In this document: in pieces, positions 6,976 through 63,106 of the stretch | Layout of the letters: every line of letters starts with the position of its first letter | Numbering within the stretch: position 1 is the first letter of the stretch | Origin: Microvirga sp. 3-52 | GTDB lineage: Bacteria; Pseudomonadota; Alphaproteobacteria; Rhizobiales; Beijerinckiaceae | Length of the DNA stretch: 64,000 nt | Direction of reading: 5' to 3' | Assembly (NCBI RefSeq): GCF_018383585.1 | Contig: NZ_JAHAMK010000002.1 | Location: forward strand, 62,001-126,000 | The notes under the pieces: generated by a model | The model's database searches: none | What the model was told of the DNA's origin: nothing | The model's input: the letters and a program-made list of their open reading frames with translations, nothing else | Program-made: the position numbers and the translations under genes

Positions 6976-7068
6976 GCATCACGACCGGGCTTGTCCCGGC
7001 CAACCCGGTGCGGAAGAGTGCGGCGCCTCGCTTCATCGGGATCACCGGCGCAAGGCCGGTAATGACAT
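6976..7068 (-). repeat. Family A intergenic quasi-palindrome, copy 1 (nusB-thiL)
   Basis: Two GC-rich hairpins of the family A type with a TCGGGA-type inner arm and an ATGAC end; the outer and inner arms are partly eroded. Loops are CTTGT and GCAAG. On the minus strand the element reads ACCGG hairpin first, the same direction as the flanking nusB and thiL genes. Confidence 0.75.
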
Positions 7069-7145
7069 GGGAAGGAAGGGCGCTCTCGTTTCCCATCGAG
7101 GGCAGCGCCCCGCTTTGCGCCCCATATCCCGGTGTCCGGCCGCGT

Positions 7146-7628
7146 TCAGCGCTTGCCTTGGCCGGCGGCCTTCTTCTCGAGCTCGCCGGGGCGCACGTCG
7201 CGGGTGACCTTGTCGAGCACCGCGTTCACGAGGCCCGGCTCGTCCTCGCCATAGAAGCCGTGGGTCACGTCCACGTATTCCGTGATGACCACGCGGGCCG
7301 GCACGTCCTTGCGGAATATCAGCTCATAACCGCCCGCACGCAGGATGGCGCGCAGCACCGCCTCCACGCGCTTCAGCGGCCAGTCGGAGGCAAGCGCATT
7401 GTCGATCTTCACGTCGATCTCGCGCTGGTTCTTGACCACCCCGGAAAGAATGTCGCGGAAGAACACGTTGTCCGAGGGCTGGAATTCGATGCCCTCGACC
7501 TCACGGCCGATCCAGAAGGCCTCGAACTCGGCGAGCGCGTCGAGCACGGTCTTGCCGGACACGTCCATCTGGTAAAGAGCCTGGACGGCAGCGAGGCGAG
7601 CGGCCGAGCGCTCTGCTGGCTTCGTCAT
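7146..7628 (-). CDS. nusB: Transcription antitermination factor NusB
   Basis: NusB pairs with NusE (S10) on boxA RNA and prevents premature termination in rRNA operons. The 160-residue all-helical protein begins with the usual RSAARLAAVQALYQMD segment, has the VEAVLRAILRAGGYEL helix near residue 105, and the VITEYVDVTHGFYGEDEPGLVNAVLD-type C-terminal signature (about residues 120-145). Length and motif order fit the alphaproteobacterial family. It starts 2 bases after the ribH stop and so is surely co-transcribed with the riboflavin genes. ribH-nusB order is conserved in many bacteria. Confidence 0.95.
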   Translation of the reverse strand: MTKPAERSAARLAAVQALYQMDVSGKTVLDALAEFEAFWIGREVEGIEFQPSDNVFFRDILSGVVKNQREIDVKIDNALASDWPLKRVEAVLRAILRAGGYELIFRKDVPARVVITEYVDVTHGFYGEDEPGLVNAVLDKVTRDVRPGELEKKAAGQGKR

Positions 7629-7630
7629 GA

Positions 7631-8122
7631 TCAGGCCTCCCCGAGTTGGCGCTTGATGCGCAGGACGGCGAGAGCCGCGTCCACCGCTCCACCACCCTTA
7701 TTCAATTCATTCACGCTCGCGCGGGTCCAGGCCTGCTTGTCATTCTCGACGGTGAGAATGCCGTTGGCCAGCGGAATGCGGCGCTCCACGGAGAGATCCA
7801 TCAGGGCACGGGCGCTTTCGCCGGCCACGATGTCGTAATGCCCGGTCTCGCCGCGGATGACGCAGCCCAGCGCCACGACGGCGTCGTAAGGCCGGCTGGC
7901 CTTCTCGGCGGCATCGAGCGCGATCGCGATGGTGGCGGGGATTTCGAGGGCGCCGTCGAGGGTCAGCACGTCCATGGTGGCCTGCGCCGCCTCGACCGCG
8001 TCTCTCGCGCCGCGCAAGAGCTCGTCGGCGATGTCGTCGTAGAACCGGGCCTCGACGACCAGGATCCTGGCGCCGGGAACCGGCGGACGGGGGCTTTTCG
8101 GCTTATCGGAAGGCGCGACCAT
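7631..8122 (-). CDS. ribH: 6,7-dimethyl-8-ribityllumazine synthase
   Basis: RibH condenses 5-amino-6-ribitylaminouracil with 3,4-dihydroxybutanone phosphate to form lumazine, the penultimate step of riboflavin synthesis. The 163-residue product shows the family pattern: the [16 protein letters not shown] opening strand-helix, the GALEIPATI motif (about residues 57-65), the [17 protein letters not shown] block that lines the active site, and [12 protein letters not shown]. Phe-to-Tyr variation in the first motif is common. It lies between ribE (across a 176-base gap holding a family B repeat) and nusB. No FMN riboswitch-like structure was recognised upstream. Confidence 0.95.
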
Positions 8123-8156
8123 AAGAAATCCGTTCAGAATTCTGACAGTCTCTCTG

Positions 8157-8264
8157 CCCTCATCCTGAGGAGCAGCGAAGCTGCGTCTCGAAGGAGGATC
8201 CAGGGAGCACTGGAGACGCCCTGATCCTTCGAGACGGCGCTGACGCGCCTCCTCAGGATGAGGG
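8157..8264. repeat. Family B intergenic repeat, copy 1 (ribH-ribE)
   Basis: About 108 bp with 15-base inverted ends CCTCATCCTGAGGAG / CTCCTCAGGATGAGG, each of which is itself a hairpin, and inner inverted arms CGTCTCGAAGGA / TCCTTCGAGACG. A second copy is at 39195-39304. The element fills most of the gap between ribH and ribE. Similar CATCCTGAGGAG palindromes are abundant between genes of Bradyrhizobium-related genomes; no coding capacity was seen. Confidence 0.85.
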
Positions 8265-8299
8265 CTGTGTATTGGATACGGGAAACGTTAGGCGTTCAC

Positions 8300-8935
8300 C
8301 TACTCCGCTCGGCGCGCATCCGCAAGCCGCGCGGCGTAGCGCGCCATAAGATCGACTTCGAGGTTGAGCTTGTCGCCCACCTGCCGGTCGCCCCAGGTGG
8401 TGACGCTCAGGGTGTGGGGGATGATCAGGACCGAAAACATGTCGTCGTTCACGGAGTTCACCGTGAGCGACGTGCCGTCGAGGCACACGGAGCCCTTTTC
8501 CGCGATGAACGCGGCCAGCGCATGCGGCGCCTTGATGCTGAAGCGCGCCGTCGGGCCCCAGGGATCGTCGCCGCCGGTGATGCCCTCCTTGGCCACGATG
8601 GTGGCGACCCCGTCCACGTGGCCGGTCACGATGTGGCCGCCGAGTTCGTCGCCGATCTTCAGGGAGCGCTCCAGATTGACCCGGGTGCCGGGCTTCCAGT
8701 CGCCCACGGTGGTGCGGTCCAGGGTTTCGGCGGCGGCATCCACGTCGAACCAGCAGCCGCCCTCGCGGGGGCCGACGGCCACGACCGTGAGGCATGGCCC
8801 GCCGCAGGCGATGGAGGCGCCGAGCGCGATCGTCGCGGGGTCATAGGACGAATGAATGCGCAAGCGCTTCAGGGTTCCTTGAGCCCCCTCGGCCGCTGCA
8901 ATCTCACCGACATCGGTGACGATACCCGTAAACAT
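8300..8935 (-). CDS. ribE: Riboflavin synthase, alpha chain
   Basis: The enzyme dismutates two lumazine molecules to riboflavin and aminouracil. The ~211-residue protein is the usual tandem of two lumazine-binding barrels. It begins with [10 protein letters not shown], the near-invariant N-terminus of the family. The first barrel contains the SIACGGPCLTVV segment and the GGHIVTGHVDG junction; the second has GSVCLDGTSLTVN and the closing VNLEVD-type strand. Its ATG overlaps the ribD stop by one base (TGATG), implying translational coupling. A longer in-frame extension to 8992 lies inside ribD and lacks support. Together with ribD and ribH it supplies three steps of the pathway; ribA/ribB are not in the window. 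Confidence 0.95.
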   Translation of the reverse strand: MFTGIVTDVGEIAAAEGAQGTLKRLRIHSSYDPATIALGASIACGGPCLTVVAVGPREGGCWFDVDAAAETLDRTTVGDWKPGTRVNLERSLKIGDELGGHIVTGHVDGVATIVAKEGITGGDDPWGPTARFSIKAPHALAAFIAEKGSVCLDGTSLTVNSVNDDMFSVLIIPHTLSVTTWGDRQVGDKLNLEVDLMARYAARLADARRAE

Positions 8936-10074
8936 CAGGGTCTCTCCCAAAACATGAAAAGATCGGGGCCGACCTGCTCCTCGGCCCGGCAATCGAGAAG
9001 GTCCATCCGGTCCTGGAGCGACGGGCCGAGGGCGGGCACATCGCCCTGCCCCCTGGCCGAGCGGCCGGTGATCAGAACCAGTTCGTCGACGAGGTCGGCT
9101 TCGGCCAGCGCGTCCGCCAGAGCGGGACCGCCTTCGCTGAACACACGCGTGAGGCCGCGCGTGCCGAGGAGCTGCAGGGCTTCCGGCAGCAGGACGCGGC
9201 CGGTTTCATCGGCCGAGACCCGCAGCACCTCGACACCTTGCGCCGTCAGCGCTTTCTCCGCCGCGACCGGAGCCGCGACGGTGGTGACGATCCAGGTCGG
9301 AATATCGCCCGCACCGGCGACCACGCGAGCGGTCGGAGGCGTCCTCAGATTCGAATCCACGACGATGCGGACCGGCGAGCGGGCCTCGAGACCCGGCAGG
9401 CGGACGTTCAGCAGCGGATCGTCGGCGAGAACGGTGCCGACCCCGACCATGATGGCATCCGCGTGGGCGCGCATGAGGTGGACTTTCGCGTTGGCGACCT
9501 CGCCCGTGAGCATCAGGCGCGGGCCCCGGCGCGAACCGGCGAAGCCTTCGGTGCTCCGCGCGAGCTTCATCGTGACCGCAGGCCGCCCCTTCGTGACGCG
9601 GGTGATATGCCCGATATGGGCGCGGCGCGCATTCCTCGCGAGGCAGCCGACCGTCACGTCGATCCCGGCCTCCCGCAGCCGCGCATGGCCGAGCCCGGTA
9701 ACGCGCGGATCCGGATCCTCGAGAGCCGAGACCACCCGTGCCACGCCGGCCTCGACCACCGCGTCGGCGCAGGGCGAGGTCCTGCCGTGATGTGAGCAGG
9801 GTTCGAGGGAGACGTAGAGGGTCGCGCCCTTCGCGCGCGTCCCTGCGGCCGCCAGGGCCACGCGCTCCGCATGGGGCCGGCCGCCCGGCTGCGTCGCGCC
9901 CTGAGCGAGGATCACGGGGGCATCGCCGCTCTCGTCCACGACCACCGAGCCGACGGACGGATTGGGCCAGGTCAGGCCGAGATGGCGCTCGCCGAGAGCG
10001 ATCGCCAAGCGCATGAAGCGCTGATCCCGCGCGCTTCTCTCAGATGACTGCCCCTTGGCGCCGGCGGCGTTCAT
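8935..10074 (-). CDS. ribD: Bifunctional riboflavin deaminase/reductase RibD
   Basis: RibD deaminates the pyrimidine intermediate and reduces its ribosyl side chain, steps two and three of riboflavin synthesis. The 379-residue product has the N-terminal zinc deaminase domain with H68-A-E70 and the zinc cysteines C93 and C102 in [11 protein letters not shown]. The C-terminal NADPH reductase domain starts near residue 155, with the [19 protein letters not shown] signature and a late [11 protein letters not shown] motif. Its start overlaps the nrdR stop by four bases (ATGA) and its stop overlaps the ribE start, so nrdR-ribD-ribE is a tight translationally coupled run. It is full length with all catalytic residues. 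Confidence 0.95.
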
Positions 10075-10580
10075 TGCTCGGTCTGTACGCGCTTCTTCTT
10101 CGGTGGGGGCGGCAGGTCCTCGTCTCCCTCGCCTTCGGCCAGCTTGCCGAGAATCTCCTCGAAGTCCTTGGCCTCGCGGAAGTTCTTGTACACGGAGGCG
10201 AAGCGCACATAGGCCACGTCGTCCAGGCCCTTCAGCCCCTCCATGACGAGTTCGCCCACGGTCTCGCTCGGCACCTCGCCGTCGCTCATGCTCTCGAGCT
10301 GGCGCACGATGCCGTTGATCATCCGTTCCACCCGCTCGGGATCGACCGGACGCTTGCGGAGCGCAACCTCCACCGATTGCTGCAGCTTGTCCCGGTCGAA
10401 CGGCACCCGCCGGCCGGAACGCTTCAGGACCGTCAGCTCACGCAGCTGCACGCGCTCGAAGGTCGTGAACCGGCCGCCGCAATCCGGGCAGATGCGGCGG
10501 CGGCGGATGGACGAGGAATCGTCCGTGGGGCGGGAATCCTTCACCTGGGTGTCCAGGCTCCCGCAATAGGGACAGCGCAT
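10071..10580 (-). CDS. nrdR: Transcriptional repressor NrdR
   Basis: NrdR represses ribonucleotide reductase genes in response to dATP/ATP. The 169-residue product begins [13 protein letters not shown] and has the four zinc-ribbon cysteines C3, C6, C31 and C34, then RRR-type basic residues for DNA contact. The ATP-cone domain occupies about residues 49-139 and contains the VPFDRDKL motif. The C-terminal tail (LPPPPKKKR) is a low-complexity extension. It overlaps ribD by four bases and follows glyA at a distance of 216 bases, the classic alphaproteobacterial glyA-nrdR-rib order. No NrdR box was searched for beyond the window. Confidence 0.95.
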
Positions 10581-10669
10581 CAGCCTTCTACCCGAAGATC
10601 CAGATCAACATTTTTCCAGGCCGCACATATCCGGAACGCGATGGCGGCCATCTGAGAACAACCACGAGC

Positions 10670-10759
10670 CGTCATGGCCGGGCCTGTCCCGGCCATCCCG
10701 ATCGGAAGAGCGCCGAACCTCGGACAATCGTCATCACCGGCCCAAGGCCCTTGATGACG
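10670..10759 (-). repeat. Family A intergenic quasi-palindrome, copy 2 (nrdR-glyA)
   Basis: Complete outer arms CGTCAT and ATGACG. The inner TCCCGAT arm is present, but its partner is eroded. Hairpin loops are CCTGT and CCAAG. It is oriented with the minus-strand genes on both sides and sits about 40 bases downstream of the glyA stop, where it could stabilise or end the glyA message. Confidence 0.85.
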
Positions 10760-10796
10760 AAGGTGCTGAATATCCGGCCACACTCCAACCCCTCGA

Positions 10797-12101
10797 TCAA
10801 CCGTAGATCGGGAACCGGCGGGTCAGCTCGTGAACGCGCTGCTTGACCGATTCCTCGACCGAGGCATTGGCCTCCTCCCCGTGCTGGGCGAGGCCGTCCA
10901 GGGTCTCGACGATCAATTCGCCCACCTTCTTGAACTCGGCCACGCCGAAGCCGCGCGAGGTGGCGGCGGGCGTGCCGAGGCGGATGCCGGAGGTGATCAT
11001 CGGCTTCTCGGGATCGAAGGGCACGCCGTTCTTGTTGCAGGTGATGTGGGCGCGGCCGAGCGCGGCCTCGGCCGCCTTGCCGGTGAGCTTCTTCGGGCGC
11101 AGGTCCACCAGCATCAGGTGGTTGTCCGTGCCGCCGGCCACGATGGCATAGCCGCCGGCCAGCATGGTGTCGGCCAGCACCTTGGCGTTGTCCACGACCG
11201 AGCGGGCGTAGAGCTTGAACTCGGGACGCAGGGCCTCGCTGAAAGCGACGGCCTTCGCGGCGATCACGTGCATGAGCGGTCCGCCCTGGAGTCCGGGGAA
11301 GATCGCGGAATTGACCTTCTTGGCGATGTCCTCGTCGTTGGTGAGGATCATGCCGCCGCGCGGGCCGCGCAGGGTCTTGTGGGTGGTGGTGGTGACCACG
11401 TGGGCGTGCGGAAACGGCGACGGATGGGCGCCGCCGGCCACGAGGCCCGCGAAATGCGCGATGTCGACCATGAAGAAGGCCCCGACCTCGTCGGCGATCT
11501 CGCGGAAGCGGGCGAAGTCCCAGAAGCGGGAATAGGCCGAGCCGCCGGCGACGATCACCTTGGGCTTGTGGGCGCGGGCGAGTTCTGCGACCTCGTCCAT
11601 GTCGATGATCTGGTCGCTCTCGCGCACCTTGTAGCTCACCACGTTGAACCACTTGCCGGACATGTTGACCGGGGAGCCGTGGGTCAGGTGGCCGCCGCAC
11701 GCGAGGTCCAGGCCCATGAAGGTGTCGCCCGGCTTCATCAGGGCCATGAACACGGCCTGGTTGGCCTGGGAGCCGGAATTGGCCTGCACGTTGGCGAATC
11801 GGCAGTCGAACAGGCGCTTGGCGCGCTCGATGGCCAGTTCCTCGGCCATGTCGACGAACTGGCAGCCGCCGTAGTAGCGGCGGCCCGGATAGCCCTCCGC
11901 GTACTTGTTGGTCATCACCGACCCCTGGGCTTCCAGGACGGCCCGGGAGACGATGTTCTCCGACGCGATCAGCTCGATCTCGTCGCGCTGGCGGCCGAGC
12001 TCGAGCCCGATGGCGCGGGCGATCTCGGGATCGCTGTCGGCGAGGCTCGCCGAGAAAAAGCTGTTGGACAGATGCTTTTGTGCCGCTTCACTCGCGCTCA
12101 T
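10797..12101 (-). CDS. glyA: Serine hydroxymethyltransferase
   Basis: GlyA interconverts serine and glycine with tetrahydrofolate, the main source of one-carbon units; in methylotroph-related bacteria it also feeds the serine cycle. The 434-residue PLP enzyme has the ELIASENI motif near residue 43, the [10 protein letters not shown] segment, [13 protein letters not shown] (about residues 212-224), and the Schiff-base lysine K242 in [16 protein letters not shown]. The C-terminus carries the [14 protein letters not shown] folate-site motif. It starts at [10 protein letters not shown]. Its leader is crowded by three tandem family A repeats, the densest cluster in the window, and it heads the nrdR-rib cluster. 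Confidence 0.97.
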
Positions 12102-12274
12102 GGGTCACCTCGTTGTCCTGGGAGCCCGGCTGGAACCGGCCGCTCGATCCGAATTGCCCAGGCCTTTATCATGGCTGGCTTGGCCGCGCCAACCCGCCCT
12201 GGAGACATGCCTACTCGGCGGCGGAAATGCAACGGGCCGCCGGGGGCGACGGGCTGCCGGGAGGCAACGCGCCA

Positions 12275-12364
12275 CGTCATGGCCGGGCCTGTTCCGGCCA
12301 TCCCGATCGGATGAGCGCGGCGCTCTTCTTAATCGGGATCACCGGCACAAGGCCGGTGATGACG
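12275..12364 (-). repeat. Family A quasi-palindrome, copy 3 (first of three upstream of glyA)
   Basis: A complete element: CGTCAT and ATGACG outer arms, TCCCGAT / ATCGGGA inner arms, the GGCCGG-type hairpin with loop CCTGT and the ACCGGC hairpin with loop ACAAG. The central segment GAGCGCGGCGCTC is itself a small palindrome. Read on the minus strand it has the same orientation as glyA. Confidence 0.9.
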
Positions 12365-12418
12365 TCGAGGAGGTGATGACGGGGTGGGGCATGCCACTGT
12401 CCTTGGTCACACTCTCCT

Positions 12419-12508
12419 CGTCATGGCCGGCCTTGTGCCGGCCATCCCGATACTGAGAGGTGCTGTACCTTTCCGATCGGGATCACCGGGACAAGCCCGG
12501 TGATGACG
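12419..12508 (-). repeat. Family A quasi-palindrome, copy 4
   Basis: A complete element with CGTCAT / ATGACG ends and loops CTTGT and ACAAG that are exactly complementary. The central linker is diverged from the usual GCGCGGCGC. It has the same orientation as copies 3 and 5. Confidence 0.9.
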
Positions 12509-12601
12509 TGGAGGAGGTGACGACGTGGAGGGAGAAGTGAAAGGCTGCGGCTCGTCCGGCGTCGTCCATCATCCGCCCGCAGACGTCATCACACCCTCAC
12601 A

Positions 12602-12692
12602 CGTCATGGCCGGGCTTGACCCGGCCATCCCGATGCTGTGAGACGCAGCGCTCCACACAATCGAGATCACCGGCACAGGGCCGGTGATGACG
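12602..12692 (-). repeat. Family A quasi-palindrome, copy 5
   Basis: A complete element whose right end lies 28 bases from the stop of the RTX gene at 12720. Loops are CTTGA and ACAGG, so loop complementarity is partly lost. Its position and orientation would let the first hairpin follow the RTX message. Confidence 0.88.
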
Positions 12693-12719
12693 GGGCGACC
12701 GGAGCGTCGGTCCGGCGCC

Positions 12720-14387: not shown

Positions 14388-14460
14388 TGACTTCGTAGAT
14401 ATACGTTATTGCGTTTCTGTCAATAAACCAGATGCATGAAGGCGTTCCGACTAGACCAAA

Positions 14461-14485
14461 CGAAAAGGCGGCCCGAGAGCCGCCC
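14461..14485 (-). terminator. Rho-independent terminator of the L,D-transpeptidase gene
   Basis: On the minus strand a 6-bp GC stem (GGCGGC / GCCGCC, loop TCTCGG) is followed directly by TTTTCGTTT. It lies about 50 bases after the stop at 14538 and upstream of the RTX gene, insulating the two. Confidence 0.8.
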
Positions 14486-14537
14486 TGTCGTTCAAATCGC
14501 GAAGACTCGAGCCGTTCACCGGCTCGCATCCCGTTCT

Positions 14538-15797: not shown

Positions 15798-16057
15798 GAG
15801 CGCAGGCTCTTCCCGGTTAGATGTTGTCGGTCATGGAAGCGGCGGACGGGTGTCCGCATCTGCCCCCTTCCCAGCGATAAGTGCCGGGATAGGATTAAGG
15901 AACGGTATCGAAAACGAGGAACATCGGGGCCGTTTTATGGCAACCCGGCCTGCCCGGTGCGCCACGCGCCTCGAAACCGCCTTTCCCGCCTATGTAACTT
16001 TGAACTGTGTTCTTGAGGATACACTTCTGCGTGAGGAGGCCGGCAGGCTGCACGCGA

Positions 16058-17571: not shown

Positions 17572-19009
<1,438 letters not shown>

Positions 19010-19034: not shown

Positions 19035-19124
19035 CGTCATCACCGGCCTTGTGCCGGTGATCCCGCTTGGAAAAGCGCGGCGCCTTACAGGATCGGGATG
19101 GCCGGGACGGGTCCGGCCATGACG
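19035..19124 (+). repeat. Family A quasi-palindrome, copy 7 (hemB to permease)
   Basis: A complete element with CGTCAT and ATGACG ends, central AAGCGCGGCGCC, first loop CTTGT and second loop ACGGG (complementary if G-U pairs are allowed). It is oriented with the flanking plus-strand genes and lies between the hemB stop and the next start. Confidence 0.9.
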
Positions 19125-22338: not shown

Positions 22339-22426
22339 CGTCATCACCGGCCTTGTGCCGGTGATCTCGATTCGAGAGGCGCTGCGTCTTCCGATCGGGA
22401 TGGCCGGCACAAGGCCGGCCGTGACG
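22339..22426 (+). repeat. Family A quasi-palindrome, copy 8 (RDD gene to transferase)
   Basis: A complete element: CGTCAT left end, GTGACG right end, loops CTTGT and ACAAG (exactly complementary), inner arms TCTCGAT and ATCGGGA. It is oriented with the flanking plus-strand genes. Confidence 0.88.
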
Positions 22427-24619: not shown

Positions 24620-24709
24620 CGTCGTCACCGGCCTTGCGCCGGTGATCCCGAACGGAGAAGCGCGGCGCTTCAAACAATCGGGATGGCCGGGTCAAGCCCG
24701 GCCATGACG
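24620..24709 (+). repeat. Family A quasi-palindrome, copy 9 (wrbA/parC convergent gap)
   Basis: A complete element with CGTCGTCACC left end, GCGCGGCGC centre, ATCGGGA arm and CATGACG right end; loops CTTGC and TCAAG pair over four of five bases. It lies where two genes converge, so it could end both messages. Confidence 0.88.
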
Positions 24710-24741
24710 TCGAATGGGAGCGCTGCCCTACCCGTTGAATC

Positions 24742-27844: not shown

Positions 27845-27935
27845 CGTCATCACCGGCCTCGTGCCGGTGATTCCGATTGAGAAAAGCGCATCGCTTCAGA
27901 CAACCGGGATGGCCGGGACAGGCCTGGCCATGACG
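27845..27935 (+). repeat. Family A quasi-palindrome, copy 10 (left edge of era-recO insert)
   Basis: A complete element with CGTCAT / ATGACG ends, but loop bases CTCGT and ACAGG are only partly complementary. It lies upstream of recO (minus) and about 200 bases upstream of the OmpA-domain gene (plus). It marks one edge of the accessory block between recO and era. Confidence 0.88.
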
Positions 27936-33924: not shown

Positions 33925-34014
33925 CGTCATGGCCGGGCCCGTCCCGGCCATCCCGATCCTGTAAGGCGCCGCGCTTTTCCAAGCGGGATCACCGGCACAA
34001 GACCGGTGATGACG
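33925..34014 (-). repeat. Family A quasi-palindrome, copy 11 (right edge of era-recO insert)
   Basis: A complete element with CGTCAT / ATGACG ends. Hairpin loops are CCCGT and ACAAG, complementary if G-U pairs are allowed. It lies between the convergent chemoreceptor and era stops, with the same orientation as era. It is opposite to copy 10 at the other edge of the accessory block. Confidence 0.88.
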
Positions 34015-38114: not shown

Positions 38115-38211
38115 CGTCATCACCGTCCCGGACTTAATCCGAGGATGGTCATCCCAATCCTAGGAGTAAGGCGCCTTTCCTGTCAGGATCACCGGCCTTG
38201 TGCCGGCACGA
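38115..38211. repeat. Family A quasi-palindrome, copy 12 (degenerate, pdxJ-rpsF gap)
   Basis: It starts with a clear CGTCATCACCG end but continues with mutated arms, and the last hairpin is the ACCGGCCTTGTGCCGG type instead of the GGCCGGG type. An old or rearranged copy. Confidence 0.6.
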
Positions 38212-38420
38212 CTGGACCTATCGAAGGCCGCCGCGCCCTTGCCTTCCGGCCGCAGATCGACTATAGCCCCCGCTTCGCGTTCGCTCCGGCCGGGGGCTGA
38301 ACGGACGGCTTGGCTTGCCATGCAGGGTTTTCAGGACCCGTCGTCCCGTGTCTCCGCCTTCGACAATCGCTCGGGCCTTGCAGGCTCGAAGGGCTTGGCG
38401 CCGATCGGACGCGCGAAACG

Positions 38421-39194: not shown

Positions 39195-39304
39195 CCTCAT
39201 CCTGAGGAGCCGCCATGGGCGGCGTCTCGAAGGACGAGGATGGCGGTTCCAGAGTTCTCTGGAGCCTCCTTCGAGACGCAGCTTCGCTGCTCCTCAGGAT
39301 GAGG
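39195..39304. repeat. Family B intergenic repeat, copy 2 (rpsR to DUF2232 gene)
   Basis: About 110 bp with CCTCATCCTGAGGAG / CTCCTCAGGATGAGG ends and inner GCGTCTCGAAGGA / TCCTTCGAGACGC arms, closely matching the copy at 8157-8264. It fills the gap between rpsR and the next gene. Confidence 0.88.
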
Positions 39305-39404
39305 TCGAGGAGAATAGATTTTCATAGCCCAGCGGTGGAAACCCGCCGGGTCAGTTGGGGCCAGAGCCCCTAACCCTGCCATCGAGCAGCGGGACAGCGA
39401 GACG

Positions 39405-40997: not shown

Positions 40998-41087
40998 CGT
41001 CATGGCCGGGCTTGTCCCGGCCATCCCGATCTTGTGAGACCCCGTGCTCTACGGATCGAGATCACCGGGACAAGGCCGGTGATGACG
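40998..41087 (-). repeat. Family A quasi-palindrome, copy 13 (rplI to dnaB)
   Basis: A nearly complete element; loops CTTGT and ACAAG are exactly complementary. It is the only copy lying between two co-directional genes whose orientation is against transcription. Confidence 0.88.
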
Positions 41088-46982: not shown

Positions 46983-47999
46983 GTGACAGAACAGAACCTT
47001 CAAATCGTTCTCGCCTCGCGCCCTGTCGGGCGTCCGTCGCCCGACAACTTCCAATTCGTTCAGGCGCCGGTCCCGAGCCCAGGTGACGGCCAAGTTCTCC
47101 TCAAGATCCGGTATCTGTCGCTCGATCCCTACATGCGCGGCCGCATGAGCGCGGCTAAATCCTACGCGGCGGCCGTCGAGATTGGGCAGGTCATGGAGGG
47201 CGGCACGGTGGCCGAGGTGCTGGAGAGCCGTCACCCGGATTATGCTGTTGGCGATGTTGTTCTCTCCTATTCGGGCTGGCAGTCCTATGCCCTGTCCGAT
47301 GGCACCGACCTGCGCAGGCTCGATTCGCAACAGGCACCTGTCACGACTGCGCTCGGTGTGCTCGGGATGCCGGGCTTCACGGCCTATGCCGGATTGCTCA
47401 CCCTCGGACAGCCGAAGGCTGGAGAGACCGTGGTGGTGGCTGCGGCAAGCGGGCCCGTCGGCGCGACCGTCGGCCAGATCGCGCACATCAAAGGGGCGCG
47501 AGCGGTGGGAATCGCCGGCGGACCGGAGAAATGCGCACTGGTTCGCGACGTCTTCGGCTTCGATGTCGCTCTCGATCACCGCTCACCCAACTTTGCGGAG
47601 GATCTGCGGGAAGCCTGCCCGGATGGCATCGACGTCTATTTCGAGAATGTCGGGGGCAAGGTCTGGGACGCCGTGTTTCCGCTGCTGAACACCTTCGCCC
47701 GCGTCCCGGTCTGCGGACTTGTGGCGCAGTACAACAGCACCGGGCCGTTCGAGGGGCCCGATCGCCTGCCGAGCCTCATGCGCGACGTGCTCACCAAGAG
47801 CCTGACCATCCGCGGTTTCATCCAGCGCGAGTTCAGCGCACAGCGCCCGGACTTCTACCGGGAAATGGCGCAATGGATCGCCGAGGGACGGGTCAAGTAC
47901 CAGGAAGACATCGTCGATGGACTGGAAAGCGCGCCAGAGGCCTTCATCGGGATGCTGGACGGCCGGAATTTCGGCAAGCTGATCGTGCAGGTTTCCTGA
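46983..47999 (+). CDS. Zinc-free MDR oxidoreductase (PTGR/CurA-like)
   Basis: 338 residues of the medium-chain dehydrogenase/reductase family without zinc ligands, closest in pattern to prostaglandin reductase/CurA-type NADPH-dependent enal/enone reductases. Markers are RYLSLDPYMRGRMS near residue 43, the VLGMPGFTAYAGLL segment, the Rossmann loop AAASGPVGATVGQIA near residue 155, FENVGGKVWDAVF, and the C-terminal RGFIQREF/YREMAQWI region. It starts at GTG 46983 with GAGGAG seven bases upstream. It stands between the second RTX gene and cvpA with its own flanking gaps. The natural substrate is unknown. Confidence 0.88.
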   Translation: MTEQNLQIVLASRPVGRPSPDNFQFVQAPVPSPGDGQVLLKIRYLSLDPYMRGRMSAAKSYAAAVEIGQVMEGGTVAEVLESRHPDYAVGDVVLSYSGWQSYALSDGTDLRRLDSQQAPVTTALGVLGMPGFTAYAGLLTLGQPKAGETVVVAAASGPVGATVGQIAHIKGARAVGIAGGPEKCALVRDVFGFDVALDHRSPNFAEDLREACPDGIDVYFENVGGKVWDAVFPLLNTFARVPVCGLVAQYNSTGPFEGPDRLPSLMRDVLTKSLTIRGFIQREFSAQRPDFYREMAQWIAEGRVKYQEDIVDGLESAPEAFIGMLDGRNFGKLIVQVS

Positions 48000-48005
48000 A
48001 GAGCC

Positions 48006-48082
48006 GCCCCTGTGCCGGTGATCCCGATCCGAACGACGCGGCATTTCACAGGATCGGGATGATCGGGACACGCCCGGCCATC
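48006..48082 (+). repeat. Family A quasi-palindrome, copy 14 (truncated, upstream of cvpA)
   Basis: The left outer end is missing: the element begins within the first hairpin (TGTGCCGGTGATCCCGATC) and ends CCCGGCCAT without GACG. The centre GACGCGGCA is recognisable. It is oriented with the flanking genes. Confidence 0.7.
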
Positions 48083-48292
48083 AGGCTGATCAAGCCTTGC
48101 TGCCTATGACCGGCCGGACTTTCAGGACGAGCCAGAGGATTAGGAGCGAGCCTCTCGGGACAAGACCTCCGTTCCCCTTCGCACAACCTTCCGGCGTTCC
48201 AATGGTGACGAAAGCCTTTGTTAACGCTATAGAGCCAGGCTCTGAACCCGCAAAGGCGGCTCCATCCCTGTTATCTTGCGTAGGCCCGGCCC

Positions 48293-50496: not shown

Positions 50497-50504
50497 GCAT
50501 CTCC

Positions 50505-54060: not shown

Positions 54061-54083
54061 GGCCATTGTCGAAAGTCGAGACC

Positions 54084-54111: not shown

Positions 54112-54280
54112 GGTTCAAGGCTGCGCGCGCACGCGAACGGCTTCGTCGCCCGAATCCTTCGGCCGCCTCCGCCAGCGCCCTCCGAGCAAGGTCTCGAGGC
54201 TGGCGCGCTCCCTGATCCGGATCCCCGATGCTCCTGCGACCCCTCGAACCCGCATCGGCGAAGCGCCCGCGGCCCTCCGA

Positions 54281-54371
54281 CGTCATCATCGACCCTGTGC
54301 CGGTGATCACGGTTGATTGAAGCCCGGCGCCTCACAGCATCGGGATGGCCGGGATGAGCCCGGCCATGACG
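54281..54371 (+). repeat. Family A quasi-palindrome, copy 15
   Basis: Ends CGTCAT and ATGACG are intact, but the first hairpin is damaged (ATCGACCCTGTGCCGG). The central AGCCCGGCGCC and ATCGGGA arm are present. It is oriented with the flanking plus-strand genes. Confidence 0.8.
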
Positions 54372-54797
54372 GCAGAGGGTGTGACGAAGGCAGGTGCGGG
54401 ACGAAAAAGTGTGTGGCTAAGGATAGGTCGTTCCAGGATGGACGCGCAGCGATGGGGACCGATTCCACTCACACGCGCCGCCCGATGGATCCCGGTCCCG
54501 ACCTGCGGCTGCAACCCGGCAAAGGCCTGCACGTCCGGCGTTAACCCTGCTGCCCGATAAGCGCCTCCATGCGCCCGGCCTTTGTTGACTTGGCGAGGCG
54601 ATACCTCATCTTACCAATCGGGATAGCTTCCCGAAAACCATGGCGGATTGGGGCTCACGTCGGCGAGCCGGTCCAAAGGCATGATGCCGCCCCGCCATTC
54701 CGGCGAAAGACCGGATGCTACTTTCCAGAATCTCCGTTTCAAACAGGCTTCCCGCGTGCGCGACATCGCTGCAGCGGTCCGCCTGCAAAGGTTCGTT

Positions 54798-57194: not shown

Positions 57195-57249
57195 ATCTGC
57201 CTTGCGTCCCGCTCCGGCGGGGGAAGCGTCATTCCCCCGCGGAGCGAAG

Positions 57250-57295
57250 GGGAAGGGAATTCATCGATCTGTATCGCGTTATGGATTCCCTTCCC
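57250..57295. repeat. Inverted repeat between the GGDEF-EAL and der genes
   Basis: Arms GGGAAGGGAATTCAT (57250-57264) and ATGGATTCCCTTCCC (57281-57295) pair over 14 of 15 bases around a 16-base spacer in a convergent gap. Its right arm recurs at 37950-37967. It may end both transcripts or be a further interspersed repeat. Confidence 0.55.
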
Positions 57296-57339
57296 GACCC
57301 TTGCGGGCCGCCGGGGATGACGCGGCGACTGAAGACGCC

Positions 57340-58686
57340 CTACTTCCGTTCCTTGTCGAACGGGTTCTGCCCCATGCGCAGGGACACGCGGATCGGGGTG
57401 CCGGGGAGATCGAAGGCCTCGCGCAGGCCGTTGACCAGGTAACGGGTATAGCTCTTCGGCAAGGCATCGAGTTGATTGCCGAACACGGCGAAATGCGGCG
57501 GGCGTGACTTCACCTGGGTCATGTAGCGAATCTTGATGCGGCGGCCCGAGACCGCGGGCGGCGGGTTCGCTTCCAGCGCCTCACCGAGCCACTGGTTGAG
57601 CCGCGCGGTAGAAATGCGCGTGTTCCACTTCTCATAGACCTGGAGCACGGCCTTCATCAGCGGATCGATGCCGCTGCCGGCCAATCCCGAGAGCGGCACC
57701 ACCGGCGCGCCGCGAACCTGCGGCAGCAGACGGGTGGCTTTCTCCTTCAAGTCCTTCAGGAGCCCCTGCTGGTCGGCCACGAGGTCCCACTTGTTGAGTC
57801 CGATCACGAGGGCGCGGCCCTCCTGCTCCACCAGGTCGACGATGGAGAGATCCTGCTTCTCGAACGGGATCGTGGCATCGAGCAGAACCACCACCACCTC
57901 GGCGAAGCGTACGGCGCGCAGGGCATCGGCGACGGAAAGCTTTTCGAGCTTGTCCTCGACGCGGGCGCGCTTGCGCAGGCCCGCCGTGTCGAAGAGCTTG
58001 ATCGCGCGTCCGCGCCAGTCCCAATCGAGCGAGATGGAATCACGGGTGATGCCGGCCTCCGGCCCCGTGAGCAGGCGATCCTCGCCGACCATGCGGTTGA
58101 TGAGGGTGGACTTGCCCGCATTCGGGCGCCCGACGATGGCGACCTGCAGCGGCTTGTTCGGATCGTCCTCTTCCTCCTCCCCGTCGTTCGGATCGGGGAA
58201 GTAGGGCATCAGGGCCTCGAAGAGGTCGGCCAGGCCCTCGCCATGCTCGGCGGAGAGCGGCACCGGATCGCCCAGGCCAAGAGAGAATGCATCATAGGCA
58301 CCGGCCATGCCGGCGCCGCCTTCCGCCTTGTTGGCGATGAGGATGACGGGCTTGCCGGAGCGCCGGACCATCTCGGCGAAGGGCCGGTCGGCCGGCAGAA
58401 TGCCGACCCGGGCATCGATCACGAAGAGGATCACGTCCGCATCGCCGATGGCGGCTTCGGTCTGGGCGCGCATGCGGCCGAGAAGCGACTCTTCGGTCGC
58501 CTCCTCGAGGCCCGCCGTGTCGATGATGCGGAATTCGAGATCGCCGAGGCGTGCCTCGCCCTCGCGCCGGTCGCGGGTCACCCCCGGCCGGTCATCCACG
58601 AGCGCCAGCTTCTTGCCGACGAGTCGATTGAAGAGAGTCGATTTGCCGACATTCGGCCGCCCGACAATGGCGACGGTCGCCGTCAT
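57340..58686 (-). CDS. der: GTPase Der (EngA)
   Basis: Der is an essential GTPase for 50S subunit assembly, with two G domains in tandem. The ~448-residue product has G1 loops [11 protein letters not shown] near residue 9 and [11 protein letters not shown] near residue 192, switch segments FRIIDTAGL and [11 protein letters not shown], and G4 motifs ANKAEG and NKWDLV. The C-terminal KH-like domain contains [17 protein letters not shown]. The start at 58686 has AGGA upstream; an ATG at 58752 is unlikely. It follows the YfgM-like gene by 13 bases. bamB, which often lies between these two genes, is missing here. Confidence 0.96.
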
Positions 58687-58699
58687 GTCTTTTCCTATC

Positions 58700-59386
58700 C
58701 TACTGGGTCGCCTGCACCGGACCGCCCGCCACGAGAGCGGTATAGATGGCAAGGCGCTGCCTTAAGGAGGAAGGCGTCTCGCGATCGGCGGCGATCTGGT
58801 CGAACCAACGACCGGCATAATCCATATCACCGGCCTTAAGGCCGGACAGTCCCAAGAGTTCCCGGGCCGAATGGCGCCAGGCACCTGACGGCGCCGCCAG
58901 CGGCTCCACGGCCTGACGCAACCCTGCGGGTTCGCCCGTGTCGATGCGCAACCAGGCGGCGCGCAGACGGGCCAGATCCTTCCAGAGCGGCGGAACGGAG
59001 GCGTCGCTGGTGAGAGCATCATAGGCCGAAGCGCCGTTTTCCGCGTTCTGCTGGCCGAGTTCGGCCGCAAGGCGGAAGCGGGCGAGCATGGCATAGCCGG
59101 TGGCGCCGTCCTCCTTGACCACAGTCTCGAAGGCAGTCTGCGCTTCCTGTCCCTTGTCCTCGGAGGACAGGCGCAGGGCCTCCTCGTAGCGCACGGCAGC
59201 CTCCTGCGCGCGGGTCTCCTGGGTATGCTGCCAGAAGCGCCAGCCGCCGACGCCCGCCACGATCAAAACCACGACGGCAATGATGATACCGTTGTAGCGC
59301 TTCCAGATCTGAGCCATCTGGTCGCGGCGGTACTCCTCATCGACTTCGCGAATGAACTCATCCTTCGGGGCCATCGTCTCACTCAT
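58700..59386 (-). CDS. YfgM-like tetratricopeptide membrane protein
   Basis: 228 residues from [10 protein letters not shown]: a cytoplasmic N-terminus, one membrane segment ([19 protein letters not shown], about 32-50), then a periplasmic region with TPR-like helices ([26 protein letters not shown]). This matches the YfgM/TPR_21 family. In E. coli YfgM binds SecYEG and periplasmic chaperones and lies next to bamB and der; der is the next gene here, 13 bases away. An ATG at 59437 would extend upstream without support. Role at the translocon is inferred from homologues. Confidence 0.85.
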
Positions 59387-59458
59387 GCGGCCTGCGCGGC
59401 CGCCTCCTGCAATCGAAGGAGGTCGCCTAACACACACGCCCGCACAAGGCGAGAGGCT

Positions 59459-60055
59459 TCATGCCCGCATAGGCAGGACCGGAACCCCGATCAGCCAGGG
59501 ATGCAGCCAAATCACGAACGCGACGTAGACCGCCGTCCCGATGACCACTGCCAGCACATCGTTCCGCCAGCCGGCAGGTGCCGCGGTGCCCCCATGCTGA
59601 GCCGCCACGTCCTGGCGCTTGACGCTGATGCGGGCGAGCACTGCCCAGACCAGGACCGAGCCGAAGAGCAGGATCGAGCCGAGATCGCCGTTAGCAAGCA
59701 GATGCGCCAGGGCCCAGATCTTCACGCCGGCGAGCATAGGGTGCTTGAGCCGCGCCTTGATGCGACCGGGGAGATAGGCCGCAGCGAGGCAGATGAAGGC
59801 GAGCCAGACCAGAAGAAGCGCCAGGTGGCGGGTCCAGACCGGCGGATCCCAGACCGGGATGTAGCCGCTTGCGCGATACTGGCCGTAGCCGATGGCGATC
59901 AGGACAATGCCGAGAAGGGAGACAAGAGAGTATAGGCCCTTGTACGGCCCCTCGCCGATCCTGGCGATCATGGCCGCTCGACTGCCCCGCGCCATGCTGA
60001 AGGCATGCATGCCGAGAAAAATCACCAGGCCGAGTATCAGCAGTGTCACGGGCAT
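59459..60055 (-). CDS. NnrU family membrane protein
   Basis: 198 residues with about six hydrophobic segments, matching the NnrU family: the opening LILGLVIFLGMHAFSMARG with conserved His, the KGLYSLVSLLGIVLIAIGYGQYR helix, and HPMLAGVKIWALAHLLANGDLGSILLFGS, the family signature. NnrU proteins occur near nitric-oxide and nitrite reductase genes and are related to isoprenoid/thiol methyltransferases of the NNMT/MeT type; activity here is unknown. GGAGG abuts the ATG at 60055, too close, while a GTG two codons later (60049) would sit six bases away, so the true start may be that GTG. No denitrification genes are nearby. Confidence 0.82.
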   Translation of the reverse strand: MPVTLLILGLVIFLGMHAFSMARGSRAAMIARIGEGPYKGLYSLVSLLGIVLIAIGYGQYRASGYIPVWDPPVWTRHLALLLVWLAFICLAAAYLPGRIKARLKHPMLAGVKIWALAHLLANGDLGSILLFGSVLVWAVLARISVKRQDVAAQHGGTAAPAGWRNDVLAVVIGTAVYVAFVIWLHPWLIGVPVLPMRA

Positions 60056-60348
60056 CCTCCGGAGGGTAGGAACTTATAACCATTCCACTCCGGAAAACCA
60101 GTCAAGACCAACGGCTGGAAGCTCTGTTGGAATGAATCCCCAGCAACACGAGGGCGCAAGTTTCGGACTCTCGTCAAAGTCCTGTACTGCCTAAACTTTT
60201 AACGACGGGGTCTCTTGCAGCATGAAAATTTCTCCGCTACGGACCGCCCCAAACCTTGCTTTAGACTAAATCGGCACTAGCGACGCCGCACCAAGTCCGA
60301 TAGCTAGGCCCCAAGATTTTCAACCGACAAAATTTAAGGGGGAGACAG

Positions 60349-60972
60349 GTGACGGCACTTCTTGGGCTATCCCGTGTCATCGACTCGATCAACGAGCGCC
60401 TCGGCAAGGTCGCCGCCTGGGCGATCGTGGTGGCGATCCTGGTCTCGGCGATCAATGCCATCATCCGGCGCATCTTCGGCGTCTCGTCCAACGCCTGGCT
60501 CGAGCTGCAATGGTACCTGTTCGGCGCCGTGTTCATGCTCTGCGCCGCATGGACGCTGAAGGCGAACGAGCACATCCGCATCGACATCGTCTCGAGCAGG
60601 CTCTCGAAGCGCGGCCGGGACGGCATCGACGTGTTCGGTCACCTGTTCTTCCTGTTCCCGTTCGTGGCCCTGCTGCTCTGGCTGAGCATCCCGTACTTCA
60701 TCAACTCCTACCGGTCCGGCGAAGTCTCCTCGAATGCCGGCGGCCTTCTGATCTGGCCAGCCAAGGGCCTCATCCTCCTGGGCTTCATCTCGATGTTCTT
60801 CCAGTGGCTGAGCGAGCTGATCAAGCGCGTGGCCATCATGCAGGGCAAGCTTGCCGATGAAGAGACGAGCGGCCACAGCGTCGAAGCGGAAGCGGAGCGC
60901 CTCATACAAGAAATCGGCACCGTCAATACGCCCGGCGCCGGCGGCACGCCGCCAGGCGACGGCGTGAGCTGA
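60349..60972 (+). CDS. TRAP transporter small permease (DctQ)
   Basis: 207 residues with four membrane segments (about 22-40, 55-75, 95-115, 132-152), typical of the DctQ subunit of TRAP solute importers. Markers include NAIIRRIFGVSSNAWLELQWYLFGAVFMLCAAWTLKANEHIRIDI with the conserved EHIRID step. The C-terminal ~55 residues are a Gly/Glu-rich cytoplasmic tail. It starts at GTG 60349 with GGGGGAG about 5 bases upstream. The large permease follows after 40 bases. The substrate-binding protein (DctP) is not present on either side within the window. Confidence 0.9.
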   Translation: MTALLGLSRVIDSINERLGKVAAWAIVVAILVSAINAIIRRIFGVSSNAWLELQWYLFGAVFMLCAAWTLKANEHIRIDIVSSRLSKRGRDGIDVFGHLFFLFPFVALLLWLSIPYFINSYRSGEVSSNAGGLLIWPAKGLILLGFISMFFQWLSELIKRVAIMQGKLADEETSGHSVEAEAERLIQEIGTVNTPGAGGTPPGDGVS

Positions 60973-61012
60973 TCGTCAGGCGCCCGTTTCAAGTTTTCCG
61001 GAGTTTCCATCA

Positions 61013-62905
61013 ATGGCTGCATTGATTGCCCAGAACCTCGCGCCGATCATGTTCGCCGCGCTCGTGGTCTTCCTTCTCCTCGGCTATCCCGTCGCCTTCG
61101 CCCTTGCGGCGAACGGATTGCTGTTCTTCTTCATCGCGGTGGAGCTTGCTCCCTACGCACCTGACACCATTACCCTCTCCTGGCCGCTCCTCCAGGCCCT
61201 GCCCGACCGCATCTTCGGCACCATGTCGAACGAGGTGCTGCTGGCGGTTCCGTTCTTCACCTTCATGGGACTGGTGCTGGAACGGTCCGGCATGGCGGAA
61301 GACCTGCTCGACACCATCGGCCAGCTCTTCGGCCCCGTGCGCGGCGGCCTTGCCTTTGCGGTGATCTTCGTGGGCGCCTTGCTCGCCGCCACCACGGGCG
61401 TCGTGGCGGCCTCGGTGATCTCGATGGGCCTGATCTCCCTGCCGATCATGCTGCGCTACGGCTACGACCGCCGCCTGGCCTCCGGCGTGATCGCGGCCTC
61501 GGGCACGCTGGCCCAGATCATTCCGCCGTCGCTGGTTCTCATCGTCATGGCAGACCAGCTCGGCCGCTCGGTGGGCGACATGTACGAGGGCGCGTTCCTG
61601 CCCGGCCTGATCCTGACCGGCCTTTACGCCGCCTACATCATGCTGATGTCGATTCTCTATCCGAAGTCGGCTCCCGGCCTTCCTCCGGAGGCTATCGGCT
61701 ACCGCGAGCCGGACGGCGCGCGGGGCGTGTGGCAGCTCGGCACCCTGGTCGTCTTCTCCGGCCTGGTCGGCTACTACGTTCTCTCGCAGACCGACACCAA
61801 GGCCGGTGCCGACTTCGTCATCCTGACGATCTGTGTTGCCACCGTTGTGGCGCTGATCTGCGCCCTCATGAACAAGATGCTCGGCGCCAAGCGGATCGTG
61901 ATTTCCGCCATCCTGGTGGCCGCCCTGGTGGGCGTGTACGTCTATCTGCACGGCCAGGGTCATGAAGGTCTCGCCCTGACCTTCGAAATGATCCTCGCCG
62001 GCGCGGTCTACGCGCTGTTCGTCGGCATCGTCGAGCGCTTTACCGGGCTGCGCCTCATGTCCAACATGGCGCAGCAGGTCACCTTCGTGATGGTGCCCCC
62101 GCTCCTGCTGATCTTCCTCGTGCTCGGCACCATCTTCATCGGTCTTGCGACGCCGACCGAAGGCGGCGCCATGGGCGCGCTGGGCTCTGTCATCCTGGCC
62201 GCGGTCAAGCGCAAGCTCGACAACAATCCGTCCCGGTTCAACTGGACCCTCGTGCGCCAGGCCACGGAGGCGACGGCGAAGCTCTCGGCCTTCGTGCTGT
62301 TCATCCTGATCGGCGCCCGGGTGTTCTCGCTCACCTTCTACGGCGTGAACGGGCACATCTGGGTCGAGCACCTGCTCACCTCGCTGCCGGGCGGACAGGT
62401 CGGGTTCCTCGTGGTCGTGAACGCGCTGGTGTTCTTCCTGGCCTTCTTCCTCGACTACTTCGAGCTCGCCTTCATCATCATCCCGCTGCTCGGCCCCGCC
62501 GCCGACAAGCTCGGGATCGACCTGATCTGGTTCGGCGTGATCCTGGCCGTGAACATGCAGACCTCGTTCATGCACCCGCCCTTCGGCTTCGCCCTCTTCT
62601 TCCTGCGCTCGGTGGCCCCCAAGGTGCCGTATATCGACCGCTTGACCGGCAAGAAGATGGAGCCCGTCACCACCGGCCAGATCTACTGGGGCGCCGTTCC
62701 CTTCGTGATCATCCAGCTCATGATGGTGGGTATCGTGATCGCCTTCCCGGGCATCGTCACGCACTACAAGGGAACGGGTCCCGTGGTCGATCCGGCGGCT
62801 GTGCAGAAGAAGCTCGACGATCTGCTGGTTCCGGGCCTCGGCGATCCCGGCGATCCCGGCGGCCTCCCCGGCCTGAACTTCGACGAGCCGCCGAAGATTC
62901 AGTAA
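61013..62905 (+). CDS. TRAP transporter large permease (DctM), long form
   Basis: 630 residues, longer than the usual ~430 of DctM. The first ~220 and last ~300 residues show the family pattern with VPFFTFMGLVLERSGMAEDLL and AASGTLAQIIPPSLVLIVMADQLG (N half), and FLATPTEGGAMGALG and DYFELAFIIIPLL (C half). Between them, about residues 225-350, lies extra sequence with three to four hydrophobic segments (the YREPDGARGVW region through VGVYVYLHGQGHEGLALTF). Such long forms are known in the mannitol/chloroaromatic-type TRAP subgroup. The C-terminus is a Gly/Pro-rich tail. With DctQ it forms the membrane part; the ligand is unknown. Confidence 0.88.
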   Translation: MAALIAQNLAPIMFAALVVFLLLGYPVAFALAANGLLFFFIAVELAPYAPDTITLSWPLLQALPDRIFGTMSNEVLLAVPFFTFMGLVLERSGMAEDLLDTIGQLFGPVRGGLAFAVIFVGALLAATTGVVAASVISMGLISLPIMLRYGYDRRLASGVIAASGTLAQIIPPSLVLIVMADQLGRSVGDMYEGAFLPGLILTGLYAAYIMLMSILYPKSAPGLPPEAIGYREPDGARGVWQLGTLVVFSGLVGYYVLSQTDTKAGADFVILTICVATVVALICALMNKMLGAKRIVISAILVAALVGVYVYLHGQGHEGLALTFEMILAGAVYALFVGIVERFTGLRLMSNMAQQVTFVMVPPLLLIFLVLGTIFIGLATPTEGGAMGALGSVILAAVKRKLDNNPSRFNWTLVRQATEATAKLSAFVLFILIGARVFSLTFYGVNGHIWVEHLLTSLPGGQVGFLVVVNALVFFLAFFLDYFELAFIIIPLLGPAADKLGIDLIWFGVILAVNMQTSFMHPPFGFALFFLRSVAPKVPYIDRLTGKKMEPVTTGQIYWGAVPFVIIQLMMVGIVIAFPGIVTHYKGTGPVVDPAAVQKKLDDLLVPGLGDPGDPGGLPGLNFDEPPKIQ

Positions 62906-62927
62906 GGGCGGTTCACGCGATAAATGA

Positions 62928-62960
62928 GAAAGGCGGGCTTTGAGGCCCGCCTTTCTTGTT
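62928..62960 (+). terminator. Terminator of the TRAP operon
   Basis: An 11-bp perfect stem GAAAGGCGGGC / GCCCGCCTTTC with loop TTTGAG is followed by TTGTT, 22 bases after the DctM stop. Confidence 0.9.
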
Positions 62961-63016
62961 TGGATCCCGGGCAAGTTATGGGCTGTCGCCAGTGAAGGCC
63001 GTCGTCTTCCTCCGCT

Positions 63017-63106
63017 CGTCATCACGGGCCTTGTGCCGGTGATCCCGATTGGTGACGCGCAGCGCTCTTCAGAAACGACATGGCCGGGACAAGTCCGGCC
63101 ATGACG
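63017..63106 (+). repeat. Family A quasi-palindrome, copy 16
   Basis: A complete element: CGTCAT / ATGACG ends, loops CTTGT and ACAAG exactly complementary, inner TCCCGAT arm with a diverged partner and GACGCGCAGCGC centre. It lies in the convergent gap after the TRAP genes. Confidence 0.88.

Follow-up and report, generated by a model that had tools for sequence, protein, structure and literature searches.

Among the repetitive extragenic palindromes (REPs) of bacteria, one group carries the tag CGTC outside its stem. In the consulted parts of the account by Di Nocera, De Gregorio and Rocco (2013, PMC3733652), CGTC-tagged REPs have an 8–9 bp stem that starts with AT, a 4–5 nt loop, and mostly a CCA tail. 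They occur preferentially as heterodimers, for which that account gives no obvious explanation, and the mobiliser is also left open there. A family of this group occurs in Microvirga sp. 3-52 (NCBI RefSeq assembly GCF_018383585.1), in a 64,000-nucleotide stretch of contig NZ_JAHAMK010000002.1 (positions 62,001 to 126,000) that is termed the window here. Coordinates given without a contig name refer to the window, and its elements are numbered by their start positions (6976, 10670 and so on). A sequence-only reading of the window had described 16 intergenic, cloverleaf-like quasi-palindromes. The analysis shows that these elements are dispersed intergenic head-to-head (HH) dimers of two CGTC-tagged REP units, and that the two units of a dimer are almost always unlike in at least one stem pair. 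Dimers of this kind are already known, and the element is not a new cloverleaf.

Relation to known repeats

By stem and loop length, the nearest relative is family CGTC-3, with which the elements share the CGTC tag, AT as the first stem pairs, a 9-bp stem, and a 5-nt loop (PMC3733652, consulted parts). With the CGTC REPs of that account in general they share head-to-head dimers, mostly heterodimers, an intergenic position near gene 3′ ends, and the lack of a linked transposase. They differ in their tail, which is CCCGAT instead of the usual CCA, and in an arm non-identity that is nearly absolute and is quantified here per stem position. Methylobacterium does not appear in the main text of that paper, and no mention of Microvirga was met in the parts consulted. 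The Br-REP1 and Br-REP2 repeats of Bradyrhizobium are also intergenic palindromic repeats of Hyphomicrobiales that lie in 3′-UTRs (untranslated regions), but their consensus, CCGGAATCTCGAGATTCCGG, is a different sequence for which the consulted parts of PMC5082802 describe no CGTC tag.

GTAG-tagged REPs, bacterial interspersed mosaic elements (BIMEs) and REP doublets forming hairpins (REPINs) are likewise short tagged hairpins, often in head-to-head pairs, with many intergenic copies. These systems have the GTAG tag and a REP-associated tyrosine transposase (RAYT), whereas the present family has the tag CGTC and its genome has no match to PF01797. RIME and other rhizobial mosaic elements are short palindromic intergenic mosaics of alphaproteobacteria, and they are likened to the present family by description only.

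Structure and abundance of the paired units

Each element consists of two 33-nt units placed head-to-head. A unit reads, in order, CGTC, AT, seven stem letters, a 5-nt loop, seven stem letters, AT, and CCCGAT, which gives a 9-bp stem. Counts of units and dimers come from a host sample of 1.61 Mb (31% of the genome), searched with a single-unit motif of 22 fixed letters that leaves the variable stem positions free and allows up to 5 mismatches. This motif matched 415 times in the sample and once in the reversed sequence (both strands, overlaps still included). In DNA comparisons of the 1.61 Mb with the named loci tested, three Microvirga loci give the largest matches, at 80–87% identity. Unit neighbours within 200 bp comprise 130 HH, 15 tail-to-tail (TT) and 10 head-to-tail pairs. 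HH unit starts lie 56–58 nt apart in 124 of 130 cases, and the dimer spacer measures 23–25 nt in 121 of 125. Among the 360 units kept, the main stem types are CA/TG (155) and GG/CC (133). The four tag letters are the same in both arms in 105 (C), 118 (G), 117 (T) and 119 (C) of 126 dimers of the sample. Beside 32 of 57 single units, a decayed partner with at least 14 of the 22 letters can be recognised (7% of 228 control sites). Sister families of the genus have CCA in place of the CCCGAT tail. The host genome also contains at least one CCA-tail dimer (G000:C60:35401-35489), whose arms share the stem base GG and differ at the tips.

A covariance model, termed R2, was built from 14 aligned window copies. 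It finds at least 150 matches in the whole host genome, the weakest of the matches listed having an E value of 1.1e-14, so the genome-wide search that the sequence-only reading had proposed does yield further copies. At E ≤ 1e-6, R2 matches occur in 46 of 48 genomes of the genus. Two congeners (G004 and G018) have none, and 23 of the 48 have at least 84 listed matches. The REP- or BIME-like character proposed by that reading is thus borne out, in the form of head-to-head CGTC-REP dimers, by the unit motif, the pairing, and the anatomy given in the consulted parts of PMC3733652.

Non-identity of the two arms

The host sample holds 129 HH dimers, of which 127 are typable and 126 are heterodimers; random pairing, an expectation that keeps the relatedness of copies in, would give half. 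The sole dimer typed as GG with GG has 5 and 6 motif mismatches in its units, and its two stems differ too. Like pairs do occur among neighbours that are not HH, for example in 13 of 40 TT neighbours at 400–3000 bp. The tips of the two arms, G-C or C-G, are moreover anti-associated (78, 6, 14 and 11 dimers; p 6e-5), as judged from 109 of the 126 dimers with relatedness kept in.

The same non-identity is seen in relatives. Among 20 syntenic stretches examined in other species, those of 13 species contain HH dimers, 32 in all, and every one of these is unlike at stem positions 6–7. A stem-blind pattern run over a large genome collection gave 80 loci with 85 matches listed, 83 of them with both hairpins, and all cross-taxon counts refer to these listed matches. 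The arms differ in 80 of the 83 dimers, which are not independent because 19 come from Bradyrhizobium and 13 from Microvirga. In 26 dimers a single stem pair is unlike, always at position 6, 7 or 12; Bradyrhizobium dimers with the difference at position 7 make up 16 of these. CGTC heterodimers with quite different stems were also met beyond Alphaproteobacteria, at L158, L174 and L187 (Methylobacter, Methylotuvimicrobium) and at L140 (a Verrucomicrobiales metagenome-assembled genome, MAG).

The genus has a sister family with a CCA tail, in which the tips are alike on both strands in none of 51 dimers, against 11.8 expected, and alike by their 5′ letters only in 3 of 51, against 14.6 expected. 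When reduced to unique stem combinations, 0 of 33 are alike (7.1 expected, p 2e-4), and for unique combinations of base plus tip the count is 0 of 23 (4.0 expected, p 0.009). These expectations keep relatedness in, except in part in the unique-combination tests. With four tip alleles, all 6 of the 6 unordered unlike pairs occur in this family, and none of the 4 like pairs does on both strands.

A survey of 385 genomes of the class used exact patterns, which are blind to other stem bases such as those of the Rhizobiaceae homodimer families. GG/GC bases were met in 135 dimers of 19 genomes (79 of these dimers from one genome), GG/GG bases in 4 dimers of 2 genomes, one being the host genome, and GC/GC bases in 14 dimers of 6 genomes. 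Of the 18 dimers with identical bases, 16 have, as judged by eye, a difference elsewhere in the stem. The trade-off between base and tip difference in this survey reaches p 0.057 and is not claimed.

One explanation of the unlike arms would be a very small mobile element with distinct left and right ends, whose putative transposase requires an asymmetric pair. The near-universal heterodimers of the host sample and their polarity agree with it, as do near-identical copies that include the spacer and slots whose occupancy varies among species. The position that differs varies by lineage, however, tip alleles swap arms in the sister family, homodimers exist in Rhizobiaceae, no enzyme is known, and no Y1 domain was found in the host genome. 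This explanation seems unlikely.

Copies in the window

Fifteen of the 16 reported copies are recovered by R2 at E ≤ 9e-11, and 14 of them at E ≤ 3e-14, scores that arise partly by construction because the model was made from those 14 copies; the contrast of 415 unit-motif hits with one in the reversed sequence tests the repeats independently. The remaining one, near 38115, is doubtful (E 0.044) and would at most be a decayed copy. The elements are as follows.

6976–7067, + strand: CGTC-REP head-to-head dimer, G-type unit first, left tag altered; R2 match at 6977–7067, E 3e-14; aligned
10670–10759, + strand: CGTC-REP head-to-head heterodimer, G-type unit first; R2 E 1.2e-15; slot empty in 12 of 18 comparable relatives
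12275–12364, + strand: CGTC-REP heterodimer, first in a tandem of three; R2 E 5e-20
12419–12508, + strand: CGTC-REP heterodimer, second in the tandem; R2 E 2.3e-21
12602–12692, + strand: CGTC-REP heterodimer, third in the tandem; R2 E 1.4e-20
17680–17768, − strand: CGTC-REP heterodimer, G-type unit first on the − strand; R2 E 1.7e-19; the same slot in relative G047 holds a CCA-tail sister dimer
19035–19124, − strand: CGTC-REP heterodimer; R2 E 2.9e-21; 97.8% identity to copy 33925
22339–22426, − strand: CGTC-REP heterodimer; R2 E 2.4e-19
24620–24710, − strand: CGTC-REP heterodimer; R2 E 2.7e-20
27845–27935, − strand: CGTC-REP heterodimer; R2 E 1.1e-18; slot empty in 16 of 19 comparable relatives
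33925–34014, + strand: CGTC-REP heterodimer; R2 E 4.6e-21
38115–38213, strand not assigned: doubtful, at best decayed CGTC dimer; R2 E 0.044 only
40998–41087, + strand: CGTC-REP heterodimer; R2 E 1.1e-19
47995–48085, − strand: decayed CGTC-REP dimer (best span of the copy reported near 48006), one arm untypable; R2 E 8.9e-11
54281–54371, − strand: CGTC-REP heterodimer; R2 E 8.5e-18
63017–63106, − strand: CGTC-REP heterodimer; R2 E 1.4e-18

The outer and inner arms that had been described are present, but they are incomplete in some copies, and the tags of 6976 and 48006 deviate. The 16 spans were said to lie between genes, and they are clear of crudely predicted genes except for a 27-bp overlap with a predicted gene starting at 19098, a start that may be mis-called. 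A separate inverted repeat pair of 72 nt, 86% complementary, lies at 8149–8220 and 39242–39313, at positions unrelated to the CGTC dimers.

Local hairpins rather than a cloverleaf

Covariation was counted over the 126 heterodimers of the host sample, with expectations obtained by shuffling partners and with relatedness kept in. The tip pair is compensated in 29 cells of the G-type hairpin (6.7 expected) and in 18 of the C-type hairpin (3.2 expected), while the remaining hairpin pairs are nearly invariant, with 33 and 30 broken cells in the two hairpins. This tip-pair covariation supports each unit being a local hairpin. A structured RNA or DNA cloverleaf with a multi-way junction would be another candidate for the functional form, since the arms are able to pair, and the position of the elements near gene 3′ ends would be in keeping with it. 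A selected junction would leave compensatory changes in its arms, but beyond chance such changes are confined to the hairpin tips. Compensation is seen in 1 cell of the outer tag arms (0.7 expected, 45 cells broken) and in 2 of the inner tail arms (3.8 expected, 91 broken), and the 14 window copies agree in that their outer and inner helices show no both-side change. The match within the outer and the inner arms is explained by the dimer itself, since its oppositely oriented units share one tag and one tail. Selection on an RNA by way of G-U asymmetry of the stems was considered and rejected, the stems read in transcript sense showing no G-U bias (12 versus 9 transitions), and Rfam has no match in the window. 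A selected cloverleaf is therefore very improbable.

Genomic context

Genes were predicted with a crude gene finder, and 120 of the 126 dimers could be placed: 65 in unidirectional, 38 in convergent and 14 in divergent gaps, and 3 inside predicted genes. The median distance from a dimer to a gene 3′ end is 55 bp. Relative to the numbers of gaps, convergent gaps are over-represented and divergent gaps under-represented (p 1e-4), and the same convergent excess and divergent deficit is described for REP-rich genomes in the consulted parts of PMC3733652. Dimer orientation shows no bias with respect to transcription (30 and 35) or GC skew (14 of 26).

Spread of dimers and composite tandems

Seven window slots were sought in syntenic regions of 20 species with crude anchors; the tandem at 12275 lacked anchors. 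Of 19 comparable species, 3 carry an element in slot 27845 and 16 have a short, empty slot; for slot 10670, the 18 comparable species divide into 4 with an element, 12 with a short, empty slot and 2 whose slot is longer without recognised units. In 5 of 6 slots, the element of the host is nearer to a paralogue than to any recognised same-slot element. Outside that count, a decayed copy of a sister species in slot 27845 is 90.1% identical, against 94.5% for the paralogue. A paralogue closer than the same-slot element fits re-insertion or gene conversion. The near-identical spacers support the dimer with its spacer as a copied or converted unit, be it by insertion or by gene conversion.

This unit seems to end at the tag, since the 85 pairs with spacers at least 80% identical have little extra flank in common compared with the 1798 other pairs: over the first ten positions, close and distant copies share 0.39 versus 0.37 on the left and 0.45 versus 0.41 on the right. 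The one readable empty site nevertheless suggests a longer insert, about 137 bp in length and bordered on each side by CCTGAA; a miniature inverted-repeat transposable element (MITE) would be expected to have a target-site duplication and a parental transposon with matching ends. In the 10–14 bp outside each dimer, the flanks have a position-specific bias, pyrimidine-rich on the left and purine-rich on the right, which is strong in the host genome and in Microvirga loci and weaker in other taxa, and which close copies share no more than others. The flanks were also considered as a target hairpin, a proposal that was dropped because their complementarity does not exceed that of shuffles.

Where dimers follow each other within less than 400 bp, they point the same way in 13 of 13 cases, and several have linkers in common by eye, from which it follows that larger composite units exist. 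The linkers of the tandem 12275/12419/12602 resemble, by eye, linkers elsewhere in the genome. Composite tandems of one orientation with recurring linkers, by eye, are seen at 12275–12692 and, in the host genome (G000), at C72:21863, C72:156575, C50:68623 and C78:161966. Avoidance of inverted neighbouring dimers had been a candidate rule, given that 15 of 15 TT neighbours at 66–400 bp are unlike, and it is explained by these same-orientation, linker-sharing tandems.

Copying of whole dimers raises another account of the unlike arms, in which heterodimers are just inherited from few founders and nothing maintains their non-identity. Copying or conversion of whole dimers, as indicated by the spacers, speaks for it, the CCCGAT-tail family can be explained by one founder, and arm-to-arm inversion could yield some reciprocal pairs without selection. 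It has to contend with a differing stem pair that depends on the lineage, and with a sister family that has all six unordered tip pairs, no like pair on both strands, and three alike on their 5′ letters. This account is considered rather improbable.

Search for a mobilising enzyme

The sequence-only reading had suggested a RayT-like transposase. PF01797, the Y1 or RAYT-type transposase domain and the only transposase family searched, has no match in the 99.94%-complete host genome and matches in 6 of 48 congeneric genomes. Y1 domains occur in 5 of the 23 genomes with at least 84 listed R2 matches and in 1 of the remaining 25 (p 0.09). In G018, the Y1 match has two stops in frame, and that genome has no R2 match. 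An autonomous element between distant HH single units was also looked for, and the six proteins checked there are ordinary or phage genes.

If the elements were GTAG-type REPINs moved by a RAYT, their general layout of tagged hairpins in head-to-head pairs and the somewhat higher frequency of Y1 in copy-rich genomes would be accounted for. The tag, however, is CGTC instead of GTAG, the host genome and 42 of 48 congeners lack PF01797, and G018 has a Y1 match yet no R2 match. A copy-rich genome in which some copies are near-identical and no Y1 domain is detectable speaks against a resident RAYT, and this origin is highly unlikely.

Energetics and a possible cause of unlike arms

The favoured explanation, which is held to be reasonably probable, is that head-to-head CGTC-REP dimers are copied or converted as units, and that homodimers are lost via long hairpins while heterodimers persist. 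Two identical units in opposite orientation would form a 33-bp inverted repeat, which, when single-stranded during replication, could close up as a single long hairpin and might then be deleted or cut. Unlike arms would keep two short hairpins competitive, and mainly heterodimers would survive.

The proposed loss of identical arms rests on hairpin energies, which were computed with DNA parameters for the long inter-arm hairpin versus two local hairpins. In 118 dimers of the host sample, the long hairpin is ahead by a mean of only 1.8 kcal/mol (standard deviation 5.3). In homodimers made in silico from the same arms, it is favoured by about 26 kcal/mol in 118 of 118 cases, so that unlike arms cut its advantage by about 25 kcal/mol. 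Among the cross-taxon matches listed, of which 8 of 83 dimers could not be evaluated, the advantage is 18.5 kcal/mol with no differing pair (n=3), 8.1 with two (n=29) and 2.2 with three (n=14), and it is reversed with more than three (3 dimers).

Several observations weigh against this explanation. Of the 118 real heterodimers, 74 would still fold better as the long hairpin, and a single differing pair leaves this hairpin a mean advantage of 12.7 kcal/mol (n=26, among the matches listed), so that the energy argument is incomplete. Homodimers do exist: 3 of the 83 listed cross-taxon dimers (Rhizobium L160, Shinella L194 and an alphaproteobacterial MAG, L117), 2 of the 18 base-identical dimers of the class survey, by eye (G122 and G432), and, in the consulted parts of PMC3733652, entire homodimer families of CGTC REPs. 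In the family of the host, one founding heterodimer could suffice by descent. The insert of about 137 bp suggested by the one readable empty site exceeds the 90-bp core.

SbcD is a known hairpin nuclease subunit. Its model (TIGR00619) scores above the cut-off in 3 of 20 genomes, and the host genome has a weak match only (E 1.7e-4), a further point against the proposed loss. SbcCD as the hairpin agent is unsupported for that reason, and a diverged SbcD could escape detection because only 8 of 14 control genomes pass the cut-off.

A more general rule is advanced tentatively, as a possibility that falls short of being probable. In most alphaproteobacterial lineages with CGTC-REP dimers, some process that senses hairpins, distinct from canonical SbcCD, may remove any dimer whose arms turn identical; arm alleles would be free to turn over as long as they stay unlike, and homodimer lineages would lack the process.

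Implications

Under the search terms used, no later explanation of the heterodimer preference was found in the open literature, including the consulted parts of PMC12306157 and PMC6006769. What is new is the occurrence of a CGTC-REP family in this genus, an arm non-identity that is nearly absolute and varies by lineage, junction arms that are negative for compensation, and a copy-rich genome without a Y1 domain. The heterodimer preference is near-absolute in the sampled genome, involves different stem pairs by lineage, and holds in the sister family despite change of the tip alleles. A preference that is near-absolute and varies by lineage makes the heterodimer question directly testable with built homodimers and heterodimers.

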